Below are positions 14,847 through 42,467 of a stretch of 64,000 bases of DNA, piece by piece. Under the pieces are notes generated by a model. The model did not search any database, was not told where the DNA came from, and saw only the letters and a list, made by a program, of their open reading frames with translations. The DNA lies in NCBI RefSeq assembly GCF_030813515.1, contig NZ_JAUSUK010000001.1:1550001-1614000 (forward strand). Direction: 5' to 3'. The stretch is from Rhodopseudomonas julia. Its GTDB lineage: Bacteria > Pseudomonadota > Alphaproteobacteria > Rhizobiales > Afifellaceae. The translations under genes and the position numbers were made by a program. How positions within the stretch are numbered: the first letter of the stretch is position 1; each line of letters starts with the position of its first letter.

Positions 14847-15728
14847 TCAGCGGGTCGGGACCGGCTCGTCGCTGCGGTAATCGTAGAAGCCGCGGCCCGC
14901 TTTGCGGCCGAGCCAGCCGGCCTCGACATATTTCACCAGGAGCGGGCAGGGGCGGTATTTGGAATCGGCGAGACCCTCGTAGAGCATCTGCATGATCGAC
15001 AGGCAGGTATCGAGACCGATGAAATCGGCGAGCTGCAAGGGGCCCATCGGATGGTGCGCGCCGAGCCGCATCGCCGTGTCGATCGCCTCCACATTGCCGA
15101 CGCCCTCATAGAGCGTATAGATCGCCTCGTTGATCATCGGCATCAGGATGCGGTTGACCATGAAGGCGGGAAAATCTTCCGCCACGGCGATCTTCTTGCC
15201 GAGCGAGGTGACGAAGCGCTTCGCCTCTTCGAAGGTGGAATCTTCCGTCGCGATGCCGCGGACGAGCTCGGCGAGCTCCATCACCGGCACCGGATTCATG
15301 AAATGCATGCCGATGAAGCGTTCGGCGCGGTCGGTGGCGGCGGCGAGCCGGGTGATCGAAATCGACGAGGTGTTGGTGGCGATCATCGCCTCGGGATCGA
15401 GGATCGGGCAGACCTCTGCGAAGACCTTGCGTTTCACCGCCTCGTCTTCCGTCGCCGCCTCGATGAGAAGATCGGCCGGGGCCAATCCTTCGACGCCCTT
15501 GGCGGGCCGCACGCGGGCGAGCGCCGCCTGACGCTCTTCCTCGCTGATACGGCCGGAGGAGCGCTGGCGGGCGAGCGTGCCTTCCAGGGTGGCAAGCCCC
15601 GCCTGCAGCCGATCCGGGGAAATGTCGTGCAGGATCACATCGTAACCGGCCAAAGCGCAGACATGGGCAATGCCTGCGCCCATCTGGCCTGCCCCGACTA
15701 TGGCGACCGTTTTGATCTCATCCGCCAT
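14847..15728 (-). CDS. hbdA: 3-hydroxybutyryl-CoA dehydrogenase
   Basis: NAD(P)-dependent enzyme that interconverts 3-hydroxybutyryl-CoA and acetoacetyl-CoA in fatty-acid, butyrate or PHB metabolism. It has 293 residues with the Rossmann motif VAIVGAGQMGAGIAHV, the catalytic His-containing GMHFMNPVPVMELAELV, the ATNTSSISIT Ser segment and C-terminal PMGPLQLADFIGLDT and KAGRGFYDY. It follows etfBA on the same strand with about 150 bases between, an arrangement found repeatedly in Hyphomicrobiales, consistent with a shared role in acyl-CoA oxidation. Confidence 0.94.
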   Translation of the reverse strand: MADEIKTVAIVGAGQMGAGIAHVCALAGYDVILHDISPDRLQAGLATLEGTLARQRSSGRISEEERQAALARVRPAKGVEGLAPADLLIEAATEDEAVKRKVFAEVCPILDPEAMIATNTSSISITRLAAATDRAERFIGMHFMNPVPVMELAELVRGIATEDSTFEEAKRFVTSLGKKIAVAEDFPAFMVNRILMPMINEAIYTLYEGVGNVEAIDTAMRLGAHHPMGPLQLADFIGLDTCLSIMQMLYEGLADSKYRPCPLLVKYVEAGWLGRKAGRGFYDYRSDEPVPTR

Positions 15729-15816
15729 GGATCATCTCTGTTGCTGGCGCTTGCGTTGAATATTGAACAAGCTTCGGGAAAGGGGAAGTGTGCGTCGCAA
15801 CATTTTCCGCATTGCA

Positions 15817-40300: not shown

Positions 40301-40452
40301 GCTTCTCCAGCGCCTTCTGTCTTGAACCCGTCCGTTGTGAGCCCGCTCGGTAAATATCGGGTAAGCGGCCGGGAGACAATGACGGGACGGGTTCGTTATG
40401 GACAGGGGCGCGGCAGATCGGCAACATATCCGCATATGAGAAGAGGATTTTG

Positions 40453-41349
40453 ATGGACGAGCGCGTGGGAGAAGAGCTGCCGCCCCTGCGGCCTTTCAGC
40501 CTGCTGGGGCCATCTGACCCGGTCTCGCCCTTCCTGTTCAACTCGCCGCATAGCGGACGCTTCTATCCGAAGAGCTTTCTCGCCCAGTCGCAGCTCGATG
40601 CGACGGAGATCCGGCGTTCGGAAGATTTCATGATCGACATGCTGTTTGCGGGCGTCGCCGAACGCGGGGCGCCGCTTCTTTCCGCCGTCTATCCGCGGGC
40701 TTATGTCGATGTGAACCGCGAGCCCTACGAGCTCGAGGCGAAAATGTTTCGCGAGCCGCTTCCGGGCTATGCCAACAGTCGCTCGATCCGCGCGGCCGGC
40801 GGGCTCGGCACGGTGCCGCGCATCGTCTCCGAAGGTCGGGCGATCTATGCCGGGCCGATCGCGCTCGCCGAAGCGTTTCAGCGCATCGACAGGGTCTATG
40901 TGCCCTATCACGAAGCGCTCAGGCAGCGGCTTGCGGCCATTCATGCGCGGTTCGGCTTCGCCGTTCTGGTCGATTGCCATTCGATGCCGTCGTCGGCGCG
41001 CAACGCCGCGCCGGGCTTGCGACCCGATTTCGTCATCGGCGATCGTTTCGGGGCAAGCTGCGCACCGGAACTCACCGACCGGGCCGTGGAGCTCTTGCGA
41101 CGCCGCGGCTATTGCGTGGCGCGCAACAAGCCTTATGCCGGGGGCTTCATCACCGAGCATTACGGTCGTCCGCAGGCCGGGCTGCATGTGATGCAGGTGG
41201 AAGTGAACCGGGGGCTCTACATGGATGAAGAGGCGATCCGCCTCAACGACGGCTTCGAGAGCGTGCAAGTCCTCGTGGAGGATCTGGCGGCGGCCCTGAT
41301 GGGCGTCGCGATCACTCCGCCGATCGCCTTCGACGAGGCGGCGGAATAG
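40453..41349 (+). CDS. N-formylglutamate amidohydrolase family protein
   Basis: A 298-residue enzyme of the HutG-type N-formylglutamate amidohydrolase family, which releases formate and glutamate at the end of one histidine-degradation route. FNSPHSGRFYP contains the first metal His, VLVDCHSMPS another, and ITEHYGRPQAGLHVMQVEVNRGLYMDE the third conserved block. RAYVDVNREPYELE is also typical. No other hut genes are near, so it may act on other formyl or gamma-glutamyl substrates. AGAGG precedes the ATG at 40453. Confidence 0.88.
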   Translation: MDERVGEELPPLRPFSLLGPSDPVSPFLFNSPHSGRFYPKSFLAQSQLDATEIRRSEDFMIDMLFAGVAERGAPLLSAVYPRAYVDVNREPYELEAKMFREPLPGYANSRSIRAAGGLGTVPRIVSEGRAIYAGPIALAEAFQRIDRVYVPYHEALRQRLAAIHARFGFAVLVDCHSMPSSARNAAPGLRPDFVIGDRFGASCAPELTDRAVELLRRRGYCVARNKPYAGGFITEHYGRPQAGLHVMQVEVNRGLYMDEEAIRLNDGFESVQVLVEDLAAALMGVAITPPIAFDEAAE

Positions 41350-41434: not shown

Positions 41435-41512
41435 AAGAAAAATGGCCGCACCGAAGTGCGGCCAAGTCTAGGGAGGAAACGCCCAATGAGGGCTGCGATA
41501 CAACGTATCGCA
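41435..41512 (-). ncRNA. MmgR/suhB-family small RNA
   Basis: A predicted transcript of about 78 bases on the minus strand. It opens with a hairpin TGCGATAC/GTATCGCA around GTT, then a short GCCC/GGGC hairpin, an exposed GTTTCCTCCCTAGACTT segment containing an anti-Shine-Dalgarno CCTCCC, and ends in a perfect terminator stem GGCCGCAC-TTCG-GTGCGGCC followed by ATTTTTCTTT. This is the layout of the alphaproteobacterial suhB RNA motif, studied as MmgR (77 nt) in Sinorhizobium meliloti, where it limits polyhydroxybutyrate accumulation. The neighbouring divergent gene is an inositol-phosphatase-family gene, as in the motif's name. Identification is from recalled consensus and structure. Confidence 0.85.
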
Positions 41513-41518
41513 ACGCAC

Positions 41519-41546
41519 AATCTATGCTGCTTTGCACAAGATGCAA
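41519..41546 (-). promoter_or_regulatory. Promoter of the MmgR-like sRNA
   Basis: On the minus strand, TTGCAT (41546-41541) and TAGATT (41524-41519) are spaced by 16 bases, fair matches to -35 and -10. The predicted start falls at about 41512, the first base of the opening hairpin, giving an RNA of about 78 bases. Confidence 0.6.
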
Positions 41547-41681: not shown

Positions 41682-42467
41682 ATGCATCCCATGGAAAGCT
41701 TTTTTCCCTTCCTGCACCGTCTCGCCGATGTGGCGGCCGATGCGATCCTGCCGCGTTTCCGCGCCGCGATCGCCGTCGACAACAAGCTTGCGTCGGGCTT
41801 CGACCCGGTGACGGAGGCCGATCGCGGCGCCGAACGCGCCATGCGCAAACTCATCCGCGAAACCTATCCCGACCACGGCATCATCGGCGAGGAATACGGC
41901 TCAGAAGGCGAGGATCGCTCGCATGTGTGGATCCTCGATCCCGTCGACGGCACACGCGCCTTCATCTGCGGCCTGCCGCTGTGGGGTTGTCTCACGGGTC
42001 TTCTGATCGACGGCAAGCCCGCCGCCGGGATGATGTCGCAGCCTTATATCGGCGAGCGCTTCTTCGGCTCTGCCGAGACCGGCAGCTTTCTGGCACGTGG
42101 CGGGGAGACGCGACCGATCAAGGTGCGCGCCTGCGCGGCGCTTGACCACGCACATATCTCCACGACCGACCCCAATCTCTTCAGCGAGACGGAAAGACCG
42201 GCGTTCGAGAGGCTGTCGGCGCGCGCGCGGCTGACGCGCTACGGCTATGATTGCTACGCTTATGCGATGGTGGCGATGGGCGGCATGGATTGCGTCGTCG
42301 AATCCGGGCTGAAGCCCTACGATATCGCACCGCTCATTCCGATCATCGAAGGCGCCGGCGGCGCGGTGACGAGCTGGGACGGCGGATCGGCTGCAAACGG
42401 CGGAAAAATCCTGGCCCTCGGCGACACATGTCTCACGCCTGAGGTGGAGGCGCTCCTGGCGACGTGA
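41682..42467 (+). CDS. Inositol-phosphatase-family protein (HisN/SuhB-like)
   Basis: A 261-residue Mg-dependent phosphatase of the inositol monophosphatase superfamily. The metal-binding motifs are FDPVTEADRGAE, IIGEEYG, WILDPVDGTRAFI and, near the C-terminus, KPYDIAPLIPIIEGAGG. The FICGLPLWG segment and overall pattern are closest to HisN-type histidinol-phosphate phosphatases, but inositol or other sugar phosphates are possible. It lies divergent from an MmgR/suhB sRNA. Its 3' end overlaps the convergent hydrolase gene by 35 bases. No strong ribosome-binding site precedes the ATG at 41682; an ATG at 41691 is an alternative. Confidence 0.88.
   Translation: MHPMESFFPFLHRLADVAADAILPRFRAAIAVDNKLASGFDPVTEADRGAERAMRKLIRETYPDHGIIGEEYGSEGEDRSHVWILDPVDGTRAFICGLPLWGCLTGLLIDGKPAAGMMSQPYIGERFFGSAETGSFLARGGETRPIKVRACAALDHAHISTTDPNLFSETERPAFERLSARARLTRYGYDCYAYAMVAMGGMDCVVESGLKPYDIAPLIPIIEGAGGAVTSWDGGSAANGGKILALGDTCLTPEVEALLAT

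Follow-up and report, generated by a model that had tools for sequence, protein, structure and literature searches.

Among the systems described so far, one close to that proposed here comes from Caulobacter crescentus, in which the sRNA CrfA sponges the alphaR8 sRNAs SisA-D, pairing with a 10-mer and acting with Hfq (PMC12559287). Within 10 min, CrfA reduces the level of SisA about five-fold, and the targets of SisA are relieved; overexpression of SisA also reduces CrfA (PMC12559287). In S. meliloti, the alphaR8 family is represented by MmgR (SmelC689), an RNA of ~77 nt with a conserved loop and hairpins that is present in single copy and subject to NtrC/AniA control, and whose loss raises polyhydroxybutyrate (PHB) and phasins. 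Papers from 2020 and 2025 state that MmgR had neither a known direct target nor a known partner for base pairing. This background is drawn, besides PMC12559287, from PMC7143759, PMC8844928, PMC8401924, and PMC3927594.

A second family of sRNAs, alpha-r9 (RF02343; S. meliloti SmelC289/sra32/smrC9), is given neither a function nor a partner in the literature passages available to us. We take SmelC289, or Smr9C, to be the founding alpha-r9, and a survey of 2012 is said to have named these sRNA families. The sections on SisA and CrfA in the Caulobacter paper leave alpha-r9 unmentioned (PMC12559287), and our literature search, which covered papers open without subscription, found no statement that alpha-r9 pairs with MmgR; as far as these searches go, a pairing of alphaR8 with alpha-r9 would therefore be new. 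In a review table, MmgR is listed under IZ/ZIII and SmelC289 under ZII, labels that we take to denote nodule zones, and such entries fit a pair of antagonists while proving nothing. The comparisons below suggest that alpha-r9 pairs with the loop of alphaR8 in many Hyphomicrobiales and antagonizes it, a reading that we hold at a probability of roughly two in three, and for which we infer expression, the involvement of Hfq, direction, and physiological effect.

The DNA analyzed (the window) is a stretch of 64,000 nucleotides from Rhodopseudomonas julia. On its minus strand, at 41512-41435, it carries a genuine and complete alphaR8 (MmgR/suhB, RF00519) sRNA gene, kept in each of the five genus genomes. 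Rfam cmscan places RF00519 at 41500-41429 (minus) over the full length of the model (1-77), with 62.8 bits and an E value of 1.4e-10, the gathering score being 41; this is the strong minus-strand match that a sequence-only reading of the same DNA, proposing an MmgR/suhB-type gene here, had named as its check. That reading had further described a 78-base RNA with three hairpins, an exposed anti-Shine-Dalgarno CCTCCC, and a terminator, and the hairpins, the exposed loop, and the terminator are borne out by folding: the segment 41512-41432 reaches -36.6 kcal/mol against -19.3 +/- 3.0 for dinucleotide shuffles (z -5.84), with none of 200 shuffles as stable. The predicted transcript (41435-41512, minus; RF00519 match, fold, and conservation), whose 78-nt length and start site are likewise predictions, would begin with a 5' hairpin, TGCGATAC-GTT-GTATCGCA (41494-41512, fold and alignment), followed by a second hairpin, GCCC-UCAUU-GGGC (41481-41493), recovered by the fold and by the paired positions of RF00519. 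The unpaired loop GUUUCCUCCCUAGACUU (41464-41480) comes next, and would serve both as the anti-Shine-Dalgarno (anti-SD) seed and, by two-strand folding, as the predicted alpha-r9 pairing site; UUUCCUCCCUAGACUU is free of pairing in the centroid fold. The RNA closes with a Rho-independent terminator, a 9-bp stem at 41464-41443 followed by TTTTT at 41442-41438, the single one found by the scan where 0.5 were expected from shuffles. By sequence and fold, then, the 10-mer UUUCCUCCCU lies unpaired after a weak hairpin and ahead of the terminator; the segment joining the loop to the terminator arm is one base shorter in this lineage than in the usual alphaR8 (CUUGGCCGC versus CUUGGGCCGC).

The promoter that had been read upstream stands in part. 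A -35-like TTGCAT (41541-41546, minus) is identical in the five genus genomes, and the -10-like element (41519-41524, minus) reads TAGATT here and TAGATT, TAAATT, or TATTTT across the genus; the region also contains TTGCATCTTGTGC, unchanged in all five genomes of the alignment. Both elements are weak, however: with their 16-nt spacer they match the consensus at 7 of 12 positions, and the promoter scan, with its threshold of at least 9 of 12, reported none at this locus. The spacer itself (41525-41540, minus) bears TTGTGC...GCA in the alignment, a dyad that is degenerate in the window and complete, as TTGTGC-N3-GCACAA, in three other members of the family (G249, G250, and G231); it is possible that this dyad represents a regulator site. 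The stretch 41438-41494 (minus) also resembles SorX (RF02784, singlet oxygen resistance RNA X), with 32.2 bits. Since the gathering score of that family is 46.6, membership was rejected; SorX may be a distant relative of alphaR8.

Most species are reported to have one alphaR8 copy adjoining an FGase gene (PMC12559287, 2025), as does SisA of Caulobacter. The same linkage is found in the window, where an FGase-family (N-formylglutamate amidohydrolase) gene occupies 40450-41349 on the plus strand (PF05013, 259.8 bits; TIGR02017, 125.6 bits, under its cut-off of 278.75). On the other side lies the divergent gene that had been assigned to the inositol-phosphatase family (41682-42467, plus): the superfamily, inositol monophosphatase, is right, but the gene scores as hisN, histidinol-phosphatase (TIGR02067, 298.3 bits, cut-off 275.15), not as SuhB. 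The genome contains a single RF00519 match at E 0.001, and at this threshold the family is recovered in 218 of 249 genomes of the order and in all 11 of the bacterial family. Widespread, single-copy, and in its usual neighborhood, the window alphaR8 is thus an unremarkable representative of an established family. Two genomes of one family carry three alphaR8-like copies in tandem over ~610 bases (L040, L044, and L049 in G071; L041, L045, and L048 in G211), the third of them under the cut-off and with the loop CUCCCUUGACUU; two others (G008, L318; G016, L322) have no RF00519 match, yet carry the sequence AAGTCTTGGGAGG on one of their strands.

The S. meliloti phenotype had been extended to this locus, with the observation that the window also holds a hydroxybutyryl-CoA dehydrogenase. 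That gene is present (14850-15731, minus; NF005715, 537.8 bits, cut-off 420). The 3-hydroxybutyryl-CoA dehydrogenase family is not confined to PHB synthesis, and its occurrence in the window is therefore no evidence for a PHB role, which would be borrowed by analogy from S. meliloti. A straightforward account would nevertheless be that the RNA is a conventional MmgR homologue limiting PHB via phasins, its complementarity to alpha-r9 being without function. Membership in RF00519, the S. meliloti phenotype, and two phasin matches above the Pfam cut-off in the genome (a third falls below) are all compatible with this account, but the start regions of the two phasins pair with the alphaR8 loop at chance level, 434 and 104 of 1000 permuted loops pairing equally well, and the partner complementarity and coevolution described below are left unexplained by it; we consider it unlikely. 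The start regions of hisN and of the FGase gene likewise show no pairing with the loop beyond chance. A direct mRNA target defined by long exact complementarity was also sought and rejected: CTAGGGAGG followed by ATG at Shine-Dalgarno (SD) distance occurs at one site in the genome, and this site is the sRNA gene read on its other strand.

The reading that we prefer, in which alpha-r9 pairs with alphaR8, turns on a second gene in the same genome. A search for complements of the alphaR8 loop with three or fewer mismatches returned two sites, one of which is the alphaR8 gene itself, against five for a reversed control pattern, so that the remaining site is unsurprising by number alone. It falls in a putative sRNA gene (G000, contig C2, about 1429427-1429564, plus) that is intergenic between proS (NF008979, 734.5 bits) and a DUF1467 gene (PF07330, 102.8 bits), ends in a terminator, and lies on the strand opposite to both neighbors; being on a contig other than that of the window, it was out of reach of the sequence-only reading. 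A 17-mer of this site is found in six records, namely Afifella marina, A. pfennigii, Afifella sp. IM 167, and three metagenome bins assigned to other phyla; we accordingly place the genome in or near the genus Afifella (Hyphomicrobiales). The gene is present in all five genus genomes, and in none of six other genomes of the family at the same DNA sensitivity. Within it, a block of 25 nt, GGCGGCCGGTCTAGGAAGGAAACGG, is invariant across the five genomes, three of which are mutually close (95-100% identity); outside the block, identity between the three distinct lineages is 59-66%, and none of 100,000 column shuffles yields a comparable invariant run.

Apart from one mismatch, this block is the complement of the alphaR8 loop, and the pairing can extend into the 5' arm of the alphaR8 terminator. 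The partner is also complementary to the alphaR8 10-mer, the feature by which a CrfA-type sponge would be recognized. Folding alphaR8 and the partner together gives two 7-bp helices that flank the mismatch, with a net gain of -17.3 kcal/mol that was equaled by none of 200 partner shuffles but by 28 of 200 alphaR8 shuffles. The partner RNA has a predicted length of some 120-140 nt. Its own fold is barely better than shuffles (z -1.34), and none of its 24 pairs has changed on both sides, so that its structure is drawn from the terminator and the energy only.

The most likely identity of the partner, judged by position, terminator, and site, is a divergent alpha-r9. Like alpha-r9, it is adjacent to proS, has a terminator of the GCAAGGC..GCCTTGC type, and carries a AGTCTTGGGAGGA block; it differs in that its single mismatch is shifted and in that it falls under the Rfam cut-off, scoring 22.5 bits against RF02343, whose gathering score is 45, and going unreported at E 0.001. 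A broader alpha-r9 model (R1), built from 23 sequences with the genus excluded, recovers the sense strand in all five genus genomes at 21.8-28.7 bits, where antisense overlaps of the terminator reach 15.6-29.8 and the control maximum is 18.3 bits in 102 kb. Across 248 genomes of the order, RF02343 itself is detected in 65 at E 0.001 and in 36 above the cut-off. At the 30 RF02343 loci fetched, proS is present in every case and DUF1467 in 20. When 19 DUF1467 loci were scanned, RF02343 was recovered at E <= 1 in seven, three of them passing the cut-off, with a best score of 72.5 bits.

In other Hyphomicrobiales, the corresponding alpha-r9 site has the consensus GCGGTCYRAGTCTTGGGAGGA, complementary to the alphaR8 loop. 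The core TCTTGGGAGG occurs in 64 of 65 RF02343 matches, a count that is partly circular because the RF02343 model contains this core. An independent set consisted of 70 regions picked solely by their DUF1467 neighbor, with positions from tblastn; some share a genus, and four (G072, G032, G128, and G026) are shorter than 900 nt, which can only lose matches. With up to two mismatches to the 14-nt loop complement AAGTCTAGGGAGGA, a site was found on the predicted strand in 38 of the 70 and on the other strand in two, and the reversed pattern was found in none on either strand; at three mismatches the corresponding numbers are 46 and two, with four and zero for the reversed pattern. Judged against permuted loops, the real loop was matched or beaten by at most two of 200 permutations in 46 regions on the predicted strand versus two on the other. 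The predicted strand lacks a site in 24 regions; among these, G227 and G246 have one on the other strand, and in six (G010, G024, G119, G130, G217, and G225) the RF02343 match of the genome carries the site elsewhere.

If the two RNAs pair, changes in one might be expected to be answered in the other, and the comparison of 65 genomes from 30 families, each genome's own alphaR8 (one copy each, although several genomes have more) being paired with its own alpha-r9, shows such coevolution. One genome represented each family, alphaR8 was permuted among families, and families were treated as independent; because only genomes with both alphaR8 and a recognizable alpha-r9 site could enter, the test measures fit given a site and not the frequency of sites, and G220, where there is no alpha-r9 site, was dropped. 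Cognate duplexes average -42.9 kcal/mol over the 30 families, against -40.3 kcal/mol for permuted ones (z -5.5; none of 20,000 permutations). The signal is found in both halves of the duplex, the loop half giving z -3.4 (p 0.001) and the terminator-arm half z -5.6. It holds over 20 random choices of family representatives (z -4.9 to -6.0) and, at z -3.2, after removal of the six top-contributing families; seven controls (reversed alphaR8, three column permutations, and three alpha-r9 flanks) gave z -0.8 to 1.4. Taken with the sites themselves, these results lend good sequence-based support to alphaR8 pairing with alpha-r9.

Individual genomes vary in how clearly they reflect this pattern. Compensatory pairs are seen in G025, where alphaR8 (67.1 bits) reads CCCUAAAC and alpha-r9 GTTTAGGG, and in G056, where they read CCCUUGAC and GTCAAGGG; in the latter the total is modest (-31.0 kcal/mol) and alphaR8, at 38.2 bits, is just under the cut-off of 41. 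The central position, usually mismatched, is paired in Afifella, where a new mismatch is found three bases from it. The alpha-r9 sites of G127 and G133 predict alphaR8 loops of CCCUUGAC and CCC-N-AAAC. The tested alphaR8 copy of G018 has two unpaired core positions, and a matching alpha-r9 change was found neither for it nor for the second copy beside it. Pairing is weak in G197 (-27.0 kcal/mol), G149 (-22.7), and G029 (-29.8). An alpha-r9 candidate is retained in G043 and G083, where no alphaR8 was found, and a search of the f43 genomes for alphaR8 by a 13-mer with one mismatch gave none that was convincing. Within the 12-nt core, aligned without gaps and with G-U allowed, exactly one position is unpaired in 52 of the 65 genomes, none in five, and two or more in eight; the single mismatch is usually at the same central position, whereas Afifella and certain other families have it at a different one. 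This regularity is largely explained by shared descent, since 43 of the 65 genomes have the core GTCTTGGGAGG in common. Perhaps the single mismatch permits exchange or turnover of the pair on Hfq in place of its cleavage as a perfect duplex.

The coevolution also bears on two other interpretations of the conserved block. It could be the SD sequence of a short leader ORF, with the resemblance to an alphaR8 complement arising because alphaR8 is itself an anti-SD RNA, and GGGAGGA would indeed make a good SD core. An ATG at SD distance, however, is present in just 3 of 71 cases, for which reason this interpretation was rejected; moreover, some 20 nt are conserved, including GCGGTCYRAGTCT outside the SD, and changes in the block track the genome's own alphaR8. 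We regard it as extremely improbable. CU-rich anti-SD loops are also reported for several alphaproteobacterial sRNAs, and alpha-r9 might mainly pair with these (AbcR/alpha-r15 and CCUCCUCCC-loop RNAs), its fit to alphaR8 being secondary. That the pairing runs through AGACUU and the alphaR8 terminator arm, and covaries in that half alone (z -5.6), argues against this, and we give the idea hardly any weight.

In the mechanism that we favor, in which alpha-r9 pairs with alphaR8 and counteracts it, the alphaR8 loop UUUCCUCCCUAGACUU would pair with mRNA ribosome-binding sites and repress them, presumably on Hfq, as suggested by S. meliloti and Caulobacter. The 25-nt block GGCGGCCGGUCUAGGAAGGAAACGG of the probable alpha-r9 in this genome would pair with the same loop, possibly reaching the 5' arm of the terminator, the predicted joining segments being UUUCCUCCCUAGACUU of alphaR8 and AGUCUUGGGAGGA of alpha-r9. 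Because the block would engage both the loop and the terminator arm, it would be expected to keep the seed occupied and to function as a sponge or as a partner in decay; with a match longer than those of mRNA sites, alpha-r9 may titrate or destabilize alphaR8. By analogy with CrfA, this sponge direction is the most likely one. The resemblance to Caulobacter extends to a second sRNA whose G/A-rich site is complementary to the same 10-mer. Unlike CrfA, the alpha-r9 gene lies by proS, and direction has been proven for CrfA only, which was compared here by description alone.

The same pairing could, conversely, operate in the opposite direction, with alpha-r9 as a target regulated by alphaR8 and not its sponge. 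All of the pairing evidence is symmetric and could equally describe regulation of alpha-r9, and the reduction of CrfA upon SisA overexpression offers a precedent (PMC12559287). Yet alpha-r9 is an sRNA that ends in a terminator and is most conserved in the very block that would pair, and in this it resembles a sponge, the direction demonstrated for CrfA (PMC12559287); we therefore rate alpha-r9 as a regulated target as distinctly unlikely. The stronger proposition, that alpha-r9 is a dedicated alphaR8/MmgR sponge across much of the Hyphomicrobiales, coevolved over many families and with its core duplex kept one mismatch short, strikes us as evenly poised between true and false.

A coevolving pair would give a testable role to both MmgR and alpha-r9, and for this reason the partner matters more than the sRNA of the window. 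If the proposed antagonism is true, the phenotypes of MmgR depend on alpha-r9; alphaR8 and alpha-r9 would also provide a comparison, outside Caulobacter, for the CrfA-SisA switch, and the two systems together would suggest that a counter-paired sRNA switch is common in Alphaproteobacteria.

Two further observations may be recorded. In the alpha-r9 RNAs L140 (G095) and L153 (G010), the first site is followed ~55 bases further downstream by another stretch, GGGAGGAAACGCC or AGGGAGGAAAC, whose complement lies in the remaining half of the alphaR8 loop. Elsewhere in the window, a DUF3800-IX RNA (RF02968, 53 bits, gathering score 36.8) lies at 2211-2283 on the plus strand, adjoining a gene for a DUF3800 protein (PF12686, 47.3 bits) at 2290-2931 on the minus strand.
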